A stretch of 64,000 nucleotides of DNA, taken from NCBI GenBank assembly GCA_000697665.1, contig KL197710.1, forward strand, positions 1,051,923 to 1,115,922, read 5' to 3'. Of the stretch, positions 9,508 to 29,107 are shown in pieces (position 1 is the stretch's first letter; the number at the start of each line of letters is the position of its first letter). Source of the DNA: Jaapia argillacea MUCL 33604. Taxonomy: Eukaryota; Basidiomycota; Agaricomycetes; Jaapiales; Jaapiaceae. Both the position numbers and the translations under genes were made by a program. Under the pieces are notes generated by a model. That model was not told the origin of the DNA, did no database searches, and was given only the letters and a program-made list of their open reading frames with translations.

Positions 9508-9627
9508 TATAATGGATGAAGGGGCCCTTTTGTGATAGTAGATCTGCAAGAAGCCAAAATTTCGATATCGACGACGGTGGCGGAGAGCTGCAAACATCCC
9601 CATACACCTCCGCCTTGCGCTGCGACG

Positions 9628-11688
9628 ATGTCAGACGTCGACCAAGCCTTGGATGCCTTGCTCAAAAATCTCAAGGGCGCCGCACCGCCATCTCTTTTGC
9701 CTGGCGAATTTTCTTCCTTGGTGGTTGCCTTTCTGCCATCGCAGCCCCACGCAACTCGATCTAAAGCCTTCATAACACTTTCAGCCATCTGTCAGGCAAT
9801 TCGACATTCAGTTACCCCCCAAAAAGGCGACGATTCCGATCCTGGAACAGACAATCTTGTTCGAGTTTTCACCCCCGTCGTCACATCTCGCGTATCCGAT
9901 GTCGAGGAGCACGAAGTTCTGGCCGGCGTCTCATTCCTATCTGCTTTATTCCAGGTCGATTGGCAGTCGGCATCAGTCATCTTTAAGGAAGATGGGGTAG
10001 CCGGTTCGCTAATGGATGCACTTGACATGTTCCCCTCTTCAGCAGACATTCGGCTAGCAGTAGCTCATCTATTGGCGCAAGCCAGTGGGCATAAGGCCTG
10101 CCGGTCGGCGATCCCTCCAGAATGTATATCCTGGCTGGAAAAACAATCACGCCAGACTTCCGACCCTGCTCTACGAGCTGGGGCCGCCATTGCTCTCGTC
10201 AAAGTCTCTCGGGGAACCCAGCAAGACTTGGCAGAGGCCGCGGGATCGAGTGTTGAGGGAGACACTCGCAAAGATGAGGATCTTGTTCAGCTCATGAAGG
10301 GCATGGTTATCGGGGAACATAACGAGTCTTCACTTAGCGACGCTATCGAGGGCCTTGCCTACATGAGTGTCGATCCCGCTACCAAGGAGACTCTTGCAAC
10401 CGACGACAAATTCCTGAAGCAATTGTTCTCTCTCGCGCCCCGCCGTCCCTCATCGTCTGCTCATCACAAGCAAGACGCCCACCTGACGCTGCTTTATGGC
10501 ATCACCATGATCATCGCCAATATATGTGCCTATCGCCCTCGACTCTCGGAGGAGCAGAAACAGATGGACAAGCTGAGGAAGATGGCGAATTCGAAGAATC
10601 CCAAAGAAAATCCCCTGGGGGACGATGATAGAGTTAGGGAAAGGTGTCTGAAGTTGGTGAAGAATGGTGCTTTGGACGCTTTGACGGCGATTGTTCGAGC
10701 CACCGACAGTCGTGGGGTCAGATTGGCCGTAGGACGGGCGTTACTCTACTTCGTCGAGGACAAGGAGAACCGAGGGAAGGTCTTGCAGAGTGGGGGAGCA
10801 AAAGCCCTGATGGTCATTATCCGTGACCACCTCTCTTCCCCTTCAGCTAAGGGTCAACCTGCAGCCTTGGAGCCAGCGGAGCTCGAGCCAATCCAGGCCC
10901 TAGCGAAACTGGCGATAACTGCATCTCCCTTCCACGTCTTTGGCCCAAATGAAGGCGCACTCTACGACGCGATCCGTCCTCTCTCCAACCTTCTCTCAGA
11001 TCCATCCTCAAATTCACTTCAGCGATTCGAGGCGATGATGGCCTTGACGAACCTGGCATCTCAGGGACCCGAAGTGGCATCTCGTATCGCAGTCGCGGAA
11101 GGGTTGATGAACAAGTTGGAGCTGTTGCTGCTGGATGAAAATCATCTTGTGCAGAGAGCCGCCACGGAACTTCTTTGCAATCTTGTTGCGGGATGCGAGT
11201 CCATGTTTGATCGATACTCCGAATCGAGCTCAAAGATGCAAGTACTCGTCGCATTGGCCGATGTCGACGACTTGCACACGAGACTGGCAGCTTCCGGTGC
11301 ACTTGCTACACTCACGGCGTCACCGACGGCATGCCGTTCACTCTTAGAGCTGGAGAATGAGCGTCATCGAGTGATGCCTGTCCTAGCTCAGCTCGTCGAC
11401 CCATCACTCGCTACATCCGAGGACGGCGACGATACCGTTGCTGACCAGGCGCAGAACGATCCTGGTCTGGTTCATCGGGGGGTCGTGTGCATCAGGAATT
11501 TTCTTCTTGGGTTGGAGAACGAGTCTGATCAAAGGCAGCTTTCCAACGAAGCAGAGAAGATTGGACTAGTAAGGGCACTCGTGGATATGCTGAAAAGAAA
11601 TGGGAATGGGGCGAACGTAGCAGTGCTGAGACCGACAGCTGAGGCTCTCAAGGTCTTCCTTGATTGTGGAATCCAGATCTCAGGATGA
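9628..11688 (+). CDS. SHE4: UCS-domain myosin chaperone (UNC-45/CRO1/SHE4 family)
   Basis: This is a single-exon gene for an armadillo-repeat myosin co-chaperone. I chose the ATG at 9628 (MSDVDQALDALLKNLKG), 686 codons; an in-frame ATG at 9532 would lengthen it by 32 residues and run almost to the TRM6 start. Helical ARM repeats run through the whole protein (e.g. LRAGAAIALVKVSRGTQQDL, RFEAMMALTNLASQGPEVA, VQRAATELLCNLVAG). The UCS segment is recognisable around LLYGITMIIANICAYRPRLS, VRERCLKLVKNGALDALTAI and RLAVGRALLYFVEDKENRG. No TPR domain precedes it, as in fungal She4/Rng3/Cro1. Such proteins bind the myosin motor domain and help it fold, assemble and bind actin. It lies 280 bp upstream of a class I myosin gene on the same strand. 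Confidence 0.9.
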   Translation: MSDVDQALDALLKNLKGAAPPSLLPGEFSSLVVAFLPSQPHATRSKAFITLSAICQAIRHSVTPQKGDDSDPGTDNLVRVFTPVVTSRVSDVEEHEVLAGVSFLSALFQVDWQSASVIFKEDGVAGSLMDALDMFPSSADIRLAVAHLLAQASGHKACRSAIPPECISWLEKQSRQTSDPALRAGAAIALVKVSRGTQQDLAEAAGSSVEGDTRKDEDLVQLMKGMVIGEHNESSLSDAIEGLAYMSVDPATKETLATDDKFLKQLFSLAPRRPSSSAHHKQDAHLTLLYGITMIIANICAYRPRLSEEQKQMDKLRKMANSKNPKENPLGDDDRVRERCLKLVKNGALDALTAIVRATDSRGVRLAVGRALLYFVEDKENRGKVLQSGGAKALMVIIRDHLSSPSAKGQPAALEPAELEPIQALAKLAITASPFHVFGPNEGALYDAIRPLSNLLSDPSSNSLQRFEAMMALTNLASQGPEVASRIAVAEGLMNKLELLLLDENHLVQRAATELLCNLVAGCESMFDRYSESSSKMQVLVALADVDDLHTRLAASGALATLTASPTACRSLLELENERHRVMPVLAQLVDPSLATSEDGDDTVADQAQNDPGLVHRGVVCIRNFLLGLENESDQRQLSNEAEKIGLVRALVDMLKRNGNGANVAVLRPTAEALKVFLDCGIQISG

Positions 11689-11968: not shown

Positions 11969-14900
11969 ATGGTTCGTACTGTCTCAGCACATGGGTGACA
12001 ACACTCTCATTCGGGATGCACAGGCTCCATCTAAGAAGGCGGGGAAGAAAGTGGCAGCCTCCAAGAAAGGTGCTGGAGGATCGGCGAAGGTAGCAAAGGT
12101 AGGACTATGTTGGCTGTAGCAGCATGCAGCGTTTGAAACTTATCCTCCGCGCAGGCCGATTGGAAGGAGGGATTCAAGAAGAAACAAGTTGGCGTTACTG
12201 ATATGACCCTCCTGACCACTATCACCAACGAAAGTATCAATGAGAATCTGCAAAAGCGATGGACGAATGGCGAAATCTATACCTATATCGGCGCCGTGCT
12301 GATATCTGTCAACCCCTTTAAAGGTATGCAACTCACGATCGGGATGATTGTCTTTGCGCTGACGTCGGTTCAGACCTTGGTATCTATGGCGAAGAAGTGC
12401 TGGAGAGATACAGAGGAAAGAACAGGCTCGAAGTGCCACCCCATGTCTTCGGTATCGCAGAATCAGCGTACTACAACATGAATGCCTACCACGAGAACCA
12501 GTGCGTTATCATTACTGGCGAGTCGGGTGCCGGGAAGACAGAGGCGGCCAAACGAATCATGCAATACATCGCTGCTGTATCGGGTGGGCAGGACAACAAC
12601 ATCCAAGAGATCAAGGACATGGTGCTGGCCACAAATCCCTTGCTCGAGAGCTTCGGGTGTGCCAAGACACTACGGAATAACAACTCCAGCCGTCACGTAT
12701 GTTATTCCCACTTGATGTATGCTATCGGAAACTCATCTCGGAACAGGGCAAGTATTTGGAGATCATGTTCAACGATCGGGGAGAACCTATTGGTGCTCAA
12801 ATCACCAATTATCTTCTGGAGAAGGGAAGAGTTGTGGGCCAGATAAAGAACGAACGCAACTTCCACATCTTCTATCAGTTTACAAAGGGAGCATCGGACG
12901 AACAGCGAGGTCAGGATTTCGACTCATTCTATATCCGTTCTGACTCAACCTCTTTCCACAGAATCCTTCGGACTACAGGGGCCCGAATCGTATGCCCTCA
13001 CCAGCAGTAGTGGCTGCCAAGATGTCGAGGGCATTAATGACGTGCATGACTTCAGCGAGACCCTTGTAAGCCGCCCAGATCGACCATCATGTTCTCATCC
13101 TTATGTCATCAACTCTAGAAAGCTATGCAGATTATTGGCCTCAGTGCAACTGAACAAAGCGAGATTTTCCGCATGCTTGCCATCATTTTATGGCTAGGAA
13201 ACGTCCAGTTCGAGGAGATGGATGATGGTAATTCTAGTGTGGCGGACACTGGGGTGACAGACTTTATCGCATATCTTATGGACGCCGAGCCTGCTCTAGT
13301 TCAGAAGGTTATGACATCCAAGGTTGTCGAAACTCAACGTGGGGGGCGGAGAGGTTCCGTTTATGACGTTCCCCTCAATCCGTCACAAGCAGGTGCGGGT
13401 AGGGACGCTCTCGCTAAGGCCATCTACAACAATCTTTTCGAGTGGATTGTATCTCGAGTCAATGTGTCGATGAAACCTCGAGCCACCGCCGCACAGCTTC
13501 TTGGAATTCTCGTTCGTCACTTTCGCATATCTTCGCCTCCACTGATATAAATAGAGATCTTTTGGCGGTTGCAGGATATCTACGGATTCGAAATTTTCGA
13601 GGTCAGTTTCCCCATTATCTATGCCACCCCGATCTGACTGTTGAGGATGCTCTCTGGTAGGACAACTCCTTTGAGCAACTTTGCATCAATTACGTCAATG
13701 AGAAGCTGCAACAAATCTTCATCGAGCTCACCTTGAAGGCTGAGCAAGAGGAGTACGTCAAGGAGCAAATCAAGTGGACGCCCATCAAGTACTTCAATAA
13801 CAAGGTTGTATGCGACCTAATTGAGGAACGTCGACCTCCTGGTATCTTTGCCGCGCTGAACGACGCTTGCGCAACTGCACATGCCGATCCTTCTGCGGCT
13901 GACAATAGCTTTGTTCAACGAACTTCCAGCTTGTCATCCAACCCCCACTTTGATGCCCGAGGTTCGCAGTTCTTGGTGAAGCATTATGCTGGAGACGTCA
14001 TGTATAATGTCGCTGGGATGACGGAGAAGAATAAGGATGCCCTCGTCAAGGACTTGTTGGATCTGGTGACGGGTTGTGGGAACCAATTCTTGGGCTCGCT
14101 ATTCCCTGATCGTCCAGATCCGAACAGCAAGAAGAGGCCACCCACCGCCAGCGACAGGATCAAGGCGAGTCTTTCGAGGCCACGGTTGACAAGTAGACTA
14201 ACAATGTTTCATCATTTCTGTCAACAGTCTTCGGCCGGTGCACTTGTCGACAACCTGATGCGTGCACAACCCTCCTATATCCGAACGATCAAACCAAATC
14301 AAAACCGGAGTTCTTCCGAATACGACTCGAAAGCAATTCTACATCAGATCAAGTATCTTGGTCTCCAGGAAAATATCCGTGTCCGTCGAGCCGGATTTGC
14401 TTATCGTAACACCTTCGAGAAGATGGTCGAGCGTTTCTACCTGCTTTCTCCAAATACCTCATACGCTGGCGAATATACCTGGCATGGAGACGCTCGGTCG
14501 GGATGTGAACAGATTCTCAAGGATACTGGTATCGCCAAGGAGGAATGGCAAATGGGAGTCACCAAGGCATTTATCAAGAATCCGGAAACCGTACGTCTTA
14601 GTCTCTGCTGTCAAACATATTGCTGATCTCTCCTCCAGTTGTTCGCTCTCGAAACAATGAGGGATCGATACTGGCATAACATGGCAGGACGTATTCAGCG
14701 GGCTTTCCGCAACTATATGCGATATAAGAACGAGTGTGCAACTCGCATTGCGCGGTTCTGGAAGAACAACAAGGAAGCCATCGTCTATGCCCAAGTTCGG
14801 GACTATGGTCACCAAGTCCTAGCTGGTCGAAAGGAGCGCCGGCGCTACAGCCTACTGAGCTACCGACGGTTCATGGGTGACTATCTGGACGTAAATGGGA

Positions 14901-23939: not shown

Positions 23940-25138
23940 TGGTTGGTATTTTCGTTCGGGAGAGTATCTTTAGAGCCATTTCACGATGCTCCGACTTCAA
24001 CCTTCACGTGTCCGACAAAAGAAGCCTTCGCGCGCGAATCACTGCAAGATGAAGGACGCGATTAGCATTCGCTGCCTGCACTCCCCAAATGACATTAATA
24101 TTGGCTGACCCATATAGTGCGCAGCGTAGTCTTGGGCCAACAGAACGGACTCATTTGACATCCCGGCCTCGACGAAATAGTGACAAGAAGAGAGTACCAG
24201 GCTCATACAAGTGATTAACATTATTCAGGTGACCCGACTTCTAAGGAGAGCAACCGAGAGACGTTGATGGCAGGGATAGTTCTACGCCTCTGTTCGCTCC
24301 ACATGGACATTGTGGAGTCTTTTTTGGGGGAGGTCCCTGGAACCTCTGTGCCCTGAGGAATGGACGCGACCGAGTACTCTTGCCGGACGTCCGAGGGGAG
24401 TATGTGGGGTGGGATGGCTTTGGGGGACATACCGGATCATTCAGAGCATGAGCGGACGCGATTGGGAGGAACATGTCCCAAACGGGTAATTCCCGACGGC
24501 AAAGAGTGTGTAGCTTGGAGGTTACAGATCACAGATCTTGAGGAGATGCAGAAACCCAGCATCCAGGGGGATGTCTATTGAACCAGCCAGAGATGTTTGC
24601 GACGCGAGACCGTGAGTGAAATGAACGTATTACGACATTTCAGCGGTGAACACATGGAAAACGAGTGCATTCCACCCTGCCAGTGATTTCTTCGGGCTTC
24701 TGGAGTCCACCCGATTCATCGGTTGGTCGACGTGACGACAACAGAGCTGCCTCCCTCGGCTTTGCGTTCCACTGGTACTGACAGCAAGTATAGCCATCCA
24801 TCCCAAACCCACTCAAACGGCATGTAGTCATTACTGCGATCCTTCTTCGGAGATGAACCTCGTTTGGGCGATGATTGGCTGTATAGATAGTCGATGGCGT
24901 GTCGGCGCACGTTTGAAGCTATGACAGTAAGCGACGAGGCTGAGGGCAAGAGGCGATGCGGACCAGTTTTGCCAACATTCGTGCAAGTCACAGCCTCAAT
25001 AGGATTGATCAACACCGAAATCAGCGAATCGAGGGTCGAAGCATATAAACCCTTTTCCAACTGGACACTTGGTAGCTAAACTCGTATCCCAGTTATCCAC
25101 CACATCTTTGCAATCCTTACCTTGTCACGATACCCACA
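23940..25138. other. Long divergent intergenic region
   Basis: About 1.2 kb lies upstream of both the GH5 gene (-) and UAP1 (+). No tRNA or clear gene is seen. A minus-strand frame at 24716-25060 is open for 114 codons and its distal part (SNDYMPFEWVWDGWLYLL) looks somewhat coding-like, but it would overlap the UAP1 TATA box and has no recognisable relative, so I do not call it. Confidence 0.35.
25044..25049 (+). promoter_or_regulatory. TATA box of UAP1
   Basis: TATAAA lies 90 bp upstream of the UAP1 start codon, within the usual distance for fungal genes with a short leader. Confidence 0.5.
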
Positions 25139-26676
25139 ATGTCCATTGACGAACTCCGCAAACGCTACGAGGCTGCAGGACAAGGCCATCTCTTACACTT
25201 CTGGCCCAAACTCTCCGAAGCCGATCAGGCTTCATTGTTGAAACAGCTTGAATCGCTCGACATCGAGCGTGTCAACCGTATCTTCAAGAAGGCTGTTAGC
25301 GCAGAGGAGGAGGCTTCAGATCCTCACGCCAAAGCTGAGCCCATCCAGCCTTTGCCCGAGGATGCCACCGACTCTGTCGTACGGTTACCTGAGAGGGAGA
25401 AAGGATGGCGGAGTATTGGGATCAACGCCATCACGCGTGGTGAAGTGGGTGTGTTGCTGATGGCGGGTGGCCAGGGCACGAGATTGGGCAGCTCAGCACC
25501 CAAGGGATGCTACGACATCGGATTACCGTCTCACAAGTCCCTATTCCAATACCAGGCAGAGAGGATCGCTCGTCTACAGGACATCGCGGAGCAGGAGAGT
25601 GGGCGTGCACCTGGTTCTGTTGTCATCCCCTGGTATGTGATGACCAGTGGTCCTACCAGGAAGGAGACAGAGCTGTTCTTTACGAAGAACTCATTCTTTG
25701 GTCTCGACTCCAAGAACGTCATCTTCTTCGAGCAGGGTGTGTCCCTTCTTAAGACCTTCATTGGGACCATATTCATCCCCTTTACGCAGGCACTCTCCCT
25801 TGTCTCACTATGGATGGCAAAGTGATGCTTGAGACTCAGTCCAAGATCGCCGTAGCTCCCGACGGTAACGGTGGACTGTATGCAGCCACCCGCTCTCCCA
25901 TATCGTCGTCCGACAAATCTCACACCGTTCTCTCCGACTTGGCGAGACGCAAAATCCTCTACGTTCATGCATATTGTGTCGACAACTGTCTCGTTCGAGT
26001 CGCGGACCCAGTCTTTATCGGCTATGGCATCGAAAAACAACTCGAATGCGCTGCAAAAGTAGTCCCCAAAGCATCTCCCACCGAGGCAGTCGGAGTCGTC
26101 GCCTGCAGAGGCGATAAATTCGGAGTTGTCGAGTACTCCGAAATCTCAAAAGAACAAGCGGAGAGGCGAGACCCCAAGACAGGTGATCTCGTTTTCAGAG
26201 CAGGAAACATCGCGAACCACTTTTACACCACCGAGTTCCTCAACCGTGTCGAGTCTTTCGAGGAGGAGTTGGCGTTCCACATCGCTCGCAAGAAGATCCC
26301 TTTCGTCGAGTTGGAGAGCGGTCAAACCGTCAAGCCATCCAAGCCTAACGGCATGAAACTCGAGATGTTCGTCTTTGATGTCTTCCCTTACACCAGGCAA
26401 TTCGCCGTGTTGGAAGTCGCGCGTAACGAGGAGTTTAGTCCCCTCAAGAACGCGCCCGGCACAGGATCAGATGACCCCGAGACTAGTCGACGTGATTTGC
26501 TCTCCCAGCACAAGCGGTTCTTGGAGGCTGCGGGTGCCAAGGTGGATGAGGGAGTTGAGATTGAGATTTCTCCTGTCGTCAGCTACGCTGGTGAAGGGCT
26601 CGAGTCTGTCAAGGGGAAGATCTTCAAGAAATCTGGGTCGGTCTCCGCCGTAGAGGAGTTGGAGGTCTTGGCGTAA
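25139..26676 (+). CDS. UAP1: UDP-N-acetylglucosamine pyrophosphorylase
   Basis: UAP1/QRI1 makes UDP-GlcNAc from GlcNAc-1-phosphate and UTP (EC 2.7.7.23), the donor for chitin, N-glycans and GPI anchors. The N-terminus is MSIDELRKRYEAAGQGHLL. The nucleotide-binding signature is VGVLLMAGGQGTRLGSSAPK, followed by GCYDIGLPSHKSLFQYQAER and IPWYVMTSGPTRKETELFF. A single 53-nt intron (about 25738-25790) splits EQG from TLPCLTMDGKVML, the family's catalytic loop. GNGGLYAA, GYGIEKQLECAAKVV, ISKEQAERRD and RAGNIANHFYTTEFL follow, then KLEMFVFDVFPYTRQFAVLE. The length of about 495 residues is normal. Few introns and strong third-position C bias suggest high expression. Confidence 0.95.
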
Positions 26677-26901
26677 ACGTAGCAGAATGGGAAATGGCTT
26701 AAACGGACAATGCCTCCCTTGTCAGTAGTGATCATCGAACGGGAAAAGTTCGCCTGTAATTGTTTTTGATATGTGTACGCTGTTCACGAAATAATCGTCT
26801 TGTTCAGATCGAGTGTGGTTGAGATGGGGAAACGAGGGTCCAGTTGCAGGAGTGTCCAAATGGAGGACGAGAGTATTACAAGGACCATACAATATAAGGT
26901 G

Positions 26902-29107
26902 TCAATCACCGGAAGGACCGTTGGGTAGTTTCTTGCTCCGAAGGATATCATCTCGAAGGGAGGCGCATATCCTTTGTGTCCGTTCAGAACTCGGCTATTT
27001 GTACGATGGTCAGAACGGCAAACGGAGTGACGAGAAGGAAAGCAACCGACATCTTCACAACAGCTTAACAGCTTGTCGATGAGCATATTATGAGCATCTT
27101 GAGCATGTTCCAACTCCTTCTTCATCTGCTGATTCTGGCCAACCGTTAGCTCGGCGACGATCATCAAAAGGAAAAGCTTGAAACTTGCCTGCTCGTCGAG
27201 GAAGTCTGCCCTAGATTTCTCACCCTCGGCTACTTGTTTTTGCTCTGCTGCTCGAGCTCGAGAAAGTAGGACTTCAAGTTCTTTTGAACGGATCACACAT
27301 TCAAAATGTCGTTCTCGGAGTTCGTATTGTCGCAAGACCTCCTTTAACCGTTCTCGGACGCTATGTTAGATATCAGTACGCATATAGCCAGGCGGAAGCG
27401 AAGGTAACTTACACGCCATCGAAAATCTCCTCAATGGTTCGCTTGGCCCTGAAACAGAACTGTCAAAAACGAAATAGTCACCTGGACAGCCGACTCACTC
27501 TGAAGGATTGTTGGTCCAGTTCTTCTTTAGCTTATCCCGGCGAACCTCAGGTAGATCATCCTACAATGACGACGCATCCGTCCGTGTAAACTCTCACACA
27601 AAGAAACGTGCAGAAGCACAAAACGCACCATGTCCTCAGTCCCCTCAGTCAGATCCATCAACTCGACGGCGATGATTTCATCCCCATCCTCCATCCCAGC
27701 TTCCTCAGGTGTCTGGTCCGCTTCCAGAGTCCTCCCACCATGAGTAAACAGGAACTGCATGGACGAAGTTGACGCCGCAGTCGACGAACCAGACGTATTG
27801 GCAGCGTCCGACTTGGCCGTCCCATTCGGTTGTCCATCCTCCCTCCCTCTCGCTCCGCCAGCACTCTTCCCTGAAACCCCAACCCCACTCTCCCCCTTCT
27901 TCCCCCCACCCCCCTCCATCCTATCCGTCCAAGCATTAAACAACCTCGACAACTTTGTCTTTCTCGAAATCTTGAAAAACAACTCCGCTCGGTACCTACA
28001 GACGACTTTGACCACAATATCGGGCATTTCTCTGTATTTGACGTCTTGGAGTTTGGCTTTTTCTGCTCGTTTGGCCATGTCGTTTTTCATTTGGAGGATC
28101 TGGTTGGCGAAATAAGTATTGGGAGGTTAGGTTAATTTAGGACTGGGTTTGTTTGAAGGGGGTGGGGGAGGGGAGGGTACCTCTTCTTGAGCTTCCTCCA
28201 CACATTGAGCTAGTCGTTTACTGTCTTCCTATATGCGCGTTAGACTGGGTATTGGTGGAAGTGGTTTCGACATACTCGTAGTCTTTTATTATCCTGAGGG
28301 ACGTTAAATGGGTTTCAAGTTTGAGAGAACGACGATGGTAAGGCCTCACTTTCTGCAATTCCCGAGCGAGGTTCTCCATCTTCGTCTTGGTCTGGTTGGC
28401 CTTGGTTAGCTGCGATTTGGCTAGGACCAAGATGAATATGACGCATATACCCTCCCTGCTGTAAGACTCGCCTGCATCCTTGTCCTTGACAAGCTTCTGC
28501 TTCTCTTTAGCATGGTCACGTTCCAACCGTTTCAACTCTGCAAACTAACCAAACTCCAAAAATTAGCACGCGACTAGTGTCCCAACCAACGCGGGCCACT
28601 AACCAATTCGATGTACTTCGACTGAACAGCGTTCTCTCCCATCCCTTTCACTGTCTTCTGTGCTTCCTCGGCTAACCACTCCTCACGCGTAAGAAACACC
28701 TCATACAGACACAAGACACCAAAACGAGAAAATCACACACCAAACTTCTTCTCTTCCTCCTCTTCATGTACTTCCTCCTCTTCCAGGGCAGCGATCCGGT
28801 TCTTCAAGCTCTCGTACATGGCAGCGGGATCGACAGGTGTAGGCTCCTTCGATTTCTTTCCTCCTTTCTGGGAATGTGTATGGGTTCCGTTCACAGCGGG
28901 TGGTGTACCATGCGGTGGAGGCCTGGATTGTTGTTGGGGTGGCTGAGAGCCGACAGTCGTGGTGGTAGTTTGATTTGGATTTGGAGGTGCTGGGGGTGCG
29001 ATGGCAGGAGCCGGGGGAGCAGGACCTGTCGGAGGAGGTTTAGGTATTCTCTGATTTTGCTGTTGTTGTTGGATGCTAGATGAAGTCGTTGTGGTTGTAC
29101 CGTTCAT
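26902..29107 (-). CDS. Taxilin-like coiled-coil protein with embedded SUMO/Rad60-like domain
   Basis: The gene has about ten exons. The first (start 29107) is Gln/Pro-rich and ends in an E-run coiled coil. Exons 2-5 match taxilin: YIELFAELKRLERDHAKEKQ, KSQLTKANQTKTKMENLARE and NKRLREDSKRLAQCVEEAQEE. The next exon (27629-28099, 471 nt) carries a beta-grasp domain. DIVVKVVCRYRAELFFKISR and TKLSRLFNAWTDRM are followed by a low-complexity insert of about 55 residues, then MQFLFTHGGRTLEADQTPEE and AGMEDGDEIIAVELMDLTEG. Taxilin sequence resumes after it: AKRTIEEIFDG, VLRQYELRERHFECVIRSKE, MKKELEHAQDAHNMLIDKLL. The end is KKLPNGPSGD. Taxilins bind syntaxins in vesicle traffic; no diglycine for conjugation follows the SUMO-like part. 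Two introns appear to be GC-AG. The C-terminal coiled coil is shorter than in animal taxilins. Confidence 0.75.
27629..28099 (-). other. Symmetric exon encoding the SUMO-like domain
   Basis: This is a 471-nt (157-codon) exon bounded by phase-0 introns on both sides (acceptor just above 28099, donor gtgcgt just below 27629). Skipping it would leave the taxilin frame intact. The domain itself occupies roughly 27640-28021. Confidence 0.65.

Follow-up and report, generated by a model that had tools for sequence, protein, structure and literature searches.

What is a SUMO-like domain doing in the middle of a taxilin-type coiled coil? The question is raised by a gene on the minus strand of a 64,000-nucleotide (nt) stretch of the genome of the basidiomycete Jaapia argillacea MUCL 33604 (assembly GCA_000697665.1, contig KL197710.1, positions 1,051,923 to 1,115,922; hereafter the window, in whose positions all unprefixed coordinates are given). 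A first-pass annotation of this DNA had proposed that one exon, here exon 7 (Table 1), inserts a SUMO/Rad60-like domain into a taxilin-like protein. We built the gene model by hand from splice consensus and frame, as 11 exons running from 29107 to about 26784, and the fusion is predicted from genomic sequence. On this model, the only taxilin gene detected in the genome probably encodes a linear fusion, in which the coiled coil is interrupted by a complete, non-conjugatable SUMO-like domain that may dock partners bearing a SUMO-interaction motif (SIM); we favour this reading with modest confidence.

The Pfam Taxilin profile (PF09728) matches the predicted protein on either side of exon 7, as had been claimed for both flanks (columns 7-105 upstream and 120-216 downstream; 68 bits against a cut-off of 30.3, with 499 of the 578 residues searched). 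With exon 7 removed, a single continuous match over columns 7-214 is obtained, at 81.8 bits for a piece that also differs in length from the first (223 versus 499 residues). At the join, to judge from where the matches end, approximately 15 residues of exon 8 (DDLPEVRRDKLKKNW) take the place of some 16 profile columns, so exon 7 is not needed to complete the taxilin here, and addition of the 27-residue leader of exon 7 extends the match only to column 106. Since the taxilin match is unbroken without it, exon 7 is therefore regarded as a clean in-frame insertion. Both halves of the taxilin lie in profile order on the same strand, and the SUMO-like exon can join them in frame, with splice signals in phase. 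Its acceptor is AACCAG, with a CTAAC branch-like motif that begins 31 nt upstream of the exon, and its donor, GTGCGT, has the same six bases as the donor of intron 1 of the organism's own SMT3 gene.

Searches of the organism's own genome covered 43.7 Mb on 95 contigs. A single PF09728 match exceeded the cut-off, and all of the protein-level taxilin matches with an expectation value (E) of 1 or better (7/7) fell within this gene. The full 302-column domain was not recovered: columns 217-302 were absent from Pfam scans of the gene, and a genome search for columns 236-302 returned only two matches on contig C63 (E 0.19 and 0.62), which were rejected as the missing C-terminal third because they are weak and lie on another contig. 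Searched against the PDB, the taxilin part produced nothing beyond a chance match to calmodulin (E 0.44), and a search of the genome for syntaxin gave a single match, below cut-off. Literature is cited here by PubMed Central identifier (PMC). Binding to syntaxin family members is stated for animal taxilins (PMC8816381, PMC3972091), and we infer by analogy that the present protein may be tied to vesicle traffic and syntaxin.

Exon 7 matches the Rad60-SLD/SUMO family at E 1.8e-8. Searched alone, it scores 34.5 bits against Rad60-SLD (cut-off 23.8), in agreement with the proposal of a SUMO-like beta-grasp on a single exon; the match is in two pieces because of a low-complexity loop, and excision of the loop gives one match of 43.8 bits over columns 1-68 of 72. 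The proposal holds from residue 28 on, where the match begins, and fails for the first 27 residues, which are not ubiquitin-like (Ubl). The loop itself is present as annotated, between helix 1 and strand 3, with a length of 52 residues rather than the 55 or so given. A phmmer search of the PDB aligned both halves of the domain with plant SUMO2 (E 2e-9). An intron hidden in the loop, a 39-nt in-frame GT-AG stretch found by eye, was considered and set aside, being shorter than any intron of the gene (47-81 nt). The probability of 157 codons without a stop is about 6e-4 per frame at the local base composition. A C-terminal diglycine was looked for and is missing, as first noted: the domain ends in ...ELMDLTEGTEDM and runs on into taxilin, so that in the gene model it is embedded in a larger chain that lacks this feature.

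Structure prediction upheld the annotated fold in part, at low confidence. The best of five AlphaFold2 models of exon 7, made from the single sequence, has a strand-strand-helix-strand-strand-strand order, with a predicted local distance difference test score (pLDDT) of 58-84 in the 10-residue blocks that span residues 31-60 and 111-150. The top Foldseek match of this model is a SUMO chain (E 1.3e-5; template modelling score, TM, 0.63 by target). In all, 89 matches had an E of 0.001 or lower, and SUMO, Smt3 or an SMT fusion is named in 46 of the best 50, the remaining rows being 5yca (an SMT3 fusion), 3tix twice and 9lhp. By this low-confidence model, exon 7 would carry the SUMO fold.

The relatives of the exon in the genome bear on its origin. 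Rad60-SLD matches number 24, comprised of exon 7, 11 matches in eight translated loci and 12 in two tandem runs on contigs C2 and C25 that are presumably polyubiquitin. One of the translated loci (L015, contig C31) is the organism's own SMT3, which, when spliced by hand, comprises five coding exons separated by four introns and ends in EQVGGST. Another (L014, C3:1466100-1466351) is a SUMO-like domain that ends at a stop codon, that we read as RENi-like (the family of Rad60, Esc2 and NIP45), and that carries a lysine/glycine-rich insert in the helix 1-strand 3 loop, as exon 7 does. The other loci we take to be two ubiquitin genes and four further Ubl proteins. Exon 7 is much closer to SMT3 than to the RENi-like domain: 30/67 aligned residues are identical to SMT3 (z 9.3), or 28/63 with the loop excised (z 17.5; 500 shuffles each). 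No second copy of exon 7 was found in the genome, three further matches having E 0.08-0.19, and searches of viral contigs (for relatives of exon 7, the taxilin core and SMT3) and of prokaryote genome contigs (for relatives of exon 7 and taxilin) gave none that was confirmed.

The first-pass annotation had described the exon as a textbook shuffling module, on the grounds that the introns on either side of it are phase 0. The phases are as described, and removal of the exon keeps the frame; the label itself is not supported. The introns of the gene have phases 1,0,1,0,0,0,0,2,2,0 in order, so with 6/10 in phase 0 the phase-0/0 status of exon 7 is unremarkable in itself. Exon 7 lacks all four SMT3 introns and no SMT3 exon border coincides with its ends, and shuffling of an SMT3 exon is not supported because these borders do not match. 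A processed copy, or an old insertion that has since lost its introns, would be a better fit.

To evaluate which functions of SUMO the domain might retain, residue lists for the SIM/E3, E2, E1 and Ulp surfaces of yeast Smt3 were taken from the table in PMC5319795 (N86, the Asn of the aligned Smt3 sequence, was used where the table prints N85). Identities were counted on a MAFFT alignment with yeast Smt3 as reference, and each surface was compared with the rest by a Fisher test. The SIM surface of exon 7 is identical to Smt3 at 9/11 positions versus 20/64 elsewhere (p 0.0023), the changes being I35 to Leu and K40 to Ser. The contrast is weaker in the other four sequences, with counts of 8/11 for the organism's own SMT3 (p 0.33), 7/11 for human SUMO1 (0.53), 8/11 for human SUMO2 (0.11) and 2/11 for the RENi-like domain (p 0.72). 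Of the five sequences compared with Smt3 on this alignment, exon 7 is alone in combining a diverged domain with a strong SIM surface. The E2 surface is identical at 4/15 positions in exon 7 (p 0.38), with 7/15 in the own SMT3 and 6/15 in the RENi-like domain, and this count proves little because human SUMO1 and SUMO2 reach only 5/15 each. For the E1 surface exon 7 has 1/9 (p 0.14; own SMT3 5, SUMO1 7, SUMO2 3, RENi-like 3), and for the Ulp surface 3/18 (p 0.05; 11, 9, 6 and 7 in the same order). Loss of all three of these surfaces (E2, E1 and Ulp) was considered as a conclusion and dropped, since the human SUMO counts do not bear it out.

What weighs against binding of Ubc9 is a single position. 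The equivalent of Smt3 Asp68 is Gly in exon 7 by HMMER, pairwise and MAFFT alignment, and acidic (Asp or Glu) in Smt3 and the other four sequences; according to the available text of PMC8636563, Smt3 Asp68 contacts Arg13 and Arg17 of Ubc9, and substitution by Arg can disrupt binding at the E2 backside. Change of Asp30 to Arg is lethal in yeast Smt3 (PMC5319795), and the Arg found at this position in exon 7 says little because the RENi-like domain also has it. With the SIM residues kept, no diglycine and Gly for Asp68, the domain is therefore read as a docking face of the SUMO type that lacks the tail for conjugation. It would protrude from the coiled coil and may, as a permanent SUMO mark, recruit SIM-bearing proteins onto the taxilin scaffold, whose partners, by analogy with animal taxilins, might be syntaxin or other trafficking proteins; it would not serve as a donor SUMO. 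A bolder form of this proposal, which we regard as improbable, is that the mark is genetically fixed: the SUMO domain would be pared down to its SIM-docking face, taxilin would be constitutively 'sumoylated' and isopeptidase-proof, the mark could be turned off only by exon skipping, and the protein would form an extranuclear SUMO-reading hub in a fungus.

Several observations weigh against the docking fusion. The donor upstream of exon 7 is weak (GTACCC) and the intron downstream of it lacks a CTNAY motif. The structural model comes from a single sequence, with mean pLDDT 56 (36-42 in the other four models) and a predicted TM of 0.44, and by query length the top Foldseek match has a TM of 0.36, with a root mean square deviation of 6.5. 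The SIM contrast comes from one sequence and few tests, uncorrected for four surfaces; K40 of that surface is Ser, and F37, I39 and L48 double as core residues. The counts do not establish that the E2 surface is lost, a point that depends on the change of Asp68 to Gly, and the E1 and Ulp contrasts are weak as well, given the low scores of SUMO2, a true SUMO.

Four other explanations were weighed, among which we rank a cassette exon next after the constitutive fusion and a nested gene lower. As a cassette, exon 7 would be spliced into some taxilin transcripts and skipped in others, so that forms carrying and lacking the SUMO-like domain are made in a regulated ratio. The preserved frame, the Taxilin match that continues across the join without exon 7 and the weak upstream donor are all consistent with this, which we consider unlikely on balance yet the most serious of the alternatives; skipping would require a 620-nt intron in a gene whose others measure 47-81 nt. 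The same 620-nt intron would be needed for an independent short gene nested within taxilin on the same strand, for which one can cite the in-frame ATGs near the start of exon 7, an unspliced open reading frame that reaches a stop at 27527, and the completeness of taxilin over the stretch without the exon. We think such a gene quite improbable, as splice signals flank the reading frame in the correct phase, no other intron exceeds 81 nt, and a free protein would still be without GG.

The remaining two concern what the domain does rather than how it is expressed. It might hold the SUMO E2 by its backside, in the manner of the second SUMO-like domain (SLD2) of Rad60 and Esc2. The available texts report that Rad60 SLD2 binds Ubc9 (PMC2946365) and that Esc2 recruits Ubc9 (PMC7891725); exon 7 shares the Pfam model, keeps the MEDGD-I stretch and has an E2-surface identity near that of the human SUMOs. 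The Gly at the Asp68 position, acidic in all other sequences compared, and the SIM-cleft residues kept in exon 7, versus the cleft obscured in Rad60 SLD2 (PMC2946365), make Ubc9 holding less likely than docking, and we are doubtful of it. Alternatively, a processed copy of SMT3 may have inserted into an intron of the taxilin gene, where it acquired splice sites and is now drifting without function. The exon is intronless where SMT3 has four introns, and the searches did not recover the last third of the Taxilin profile; the long open frame speaks against decay, as does an identity to SMT3 of about 45%, which suggests age, together with a core and SIM surface that are nevertheless kept. We regard this last explanation as very unlikely.

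The constitutive docking fusion can be placed among known systems. It resembles the Taxilin family (alpha-, beta- and gamma-taxilin) in its coiled coil and collinear, above-cut-off profile match, and differs by the SUMO-like interruption and the columns not found. With SUMO/Smt3 it shares the beta-grasp order, 44-45% identity (own SMT3) and the SIM surface of the yeast protein, and it differs by the missing diglycine, the Gly at Asp68, the 52-residue loop and its embedding in a larger protein. With RENi proteins it shares the Pfam model and the arrangement of a non-cleavable SUMO fusion without diglycine; unlike their two C-terminal SUMO-like domains, the taxilin fusion has one, which lies within a coiled coil and retains the SIM groove. 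A class of SUMO-like domain proteins, which are non-cleavable SUMO fusions, is described in PMC549199, where linear fusions are known from RENi proteins linked to chromatin, as far as the available text goes. Among the papers listed in literature searches on taxilin or SUMO-like domains, none, by title and start of abstract, described a taxilin-SUMO fusion. A SUMO-like domain in taxilin would extend the linear-fusion class to a vesicle-traffic protein family, and a domain that retains the groove but lacks the conjugation tail would constitute a natural separation-of-function SUMO. If exon 7 were skipped in some transcripts, a SUMO signal would be switched by splicing and not by enzymes.

Table 1. 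Exons of the taxilin gene and subdivisions of exon 7 (positions in the window)
Feature	Position	Strand	Description
Exon 1	28741..29107	-	Met start (chosen by eye), Gln/Pro-rich N-terminus; coiled coil begins
Exon 2	28604..28671	-	Taxilin coiled coil, within Taxilin profile match
Exon 3	28472..28544	-	Taxilin coiled coil (FAELKRLERDHAKEKQKLVKDKDA); GC-AG intron next
Exon 4	28350..28420	-	Taxilin coiled coil, profile match
Exon 5	28276..28293	-	18-nt microexon (DNKRLR)
Exon 6	28181..28228	-	Last taxilin exon upstream of insert (EDSKRLAQCVEEAQEE); ends at about Taxilin column 103
Exon 7, SUMO-like insert	27629..28099	-	Phase 0/0, 157 codons; Rad60-SLD, PDB SUMO and Foldseek matches
Exon 7, leader (27 residues)	28019..28099	-	Partly helical in model, low pLDDT; not recognised as taxilin
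Exon 7, beta-grasp first half	27917..28018	-	Strands 1-2, helix 1; residues 40-60 equivalent to SIM groove
Exon 7, loop (52 residues, exon residues 62-113)	27761..27916	-	Gly/Ser/Ala/Lys-rich, helix 1-strand 3, low pLDDT
Exon 7, beta-grasp second half	27659..27760	-	MQFLFTHGGRTLEADQTPEEAGMEDGDEIIAVEL; Gly at Smt3 Asp68 position
Exon 8	27499..27560	-	DDLPEVRRDKLKKNWTNNPSE; about Taxilin columns 104-119 without exon 7 (inferred from match ends)
Exon 9	27413..27448	-	Taxilin
Exon 10	27189..27360	-	Taxilin core (QYELRERHFE...), 33.2 bits alone in own-genome search; GC-AG intron next
Exon 11	26784..27134	-	Short coiled coil; the C-terminus after it, up to the stop, is not taxilin; gene end uncertain

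Two of the 10 introns in the model are of the GC-AG type (28421-28471 and 27135-27188, with donors GCGAGT and GCAAGT). For the exon 3 donor, the GC choice gave 45.6 bits and the alternative GT 38.4, for fragments that also differ at their ends. In another frame of exon 11, the minus strand at 26984-27052 encodes MSVAFLLVTPFAVLTIVQIAEF followed by a stop, a 22-residue hydrophobic stretch preceded by a possible acceptor, GTGAAG. Hypothetical splicing of the exon 10 donor to this acceptor, in phase 0, would replace the coiled coil with a C-terminal tail resembling a membrane anchor.

Elsewhere in the genome, two loci lie approximately 7 kb apart on contig C14 (L010, 588788-588997, and L017, 596035-596244), each with a Ubl domain and, after it, a similar KPVIYL[YF]PPK segment, and are apparently paralogous Ubl-fusion genes. 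Within the window, the stop of the taxilin model is separated by 107 nt from that of a convergent plus-strand neighbour (25076-26676), presumably a UDP-N-acetylglucosamine pyrophosphorylase from the way it reads. Also on the plus strand, a gene with a Pfam match to UNC45-central (9520-11685) and a myosin motor gene, also by Pfam match (13661-14623), lie about 2 kb apart, UNC45-type proteins and myosin being a pair of the chaperone and client type.
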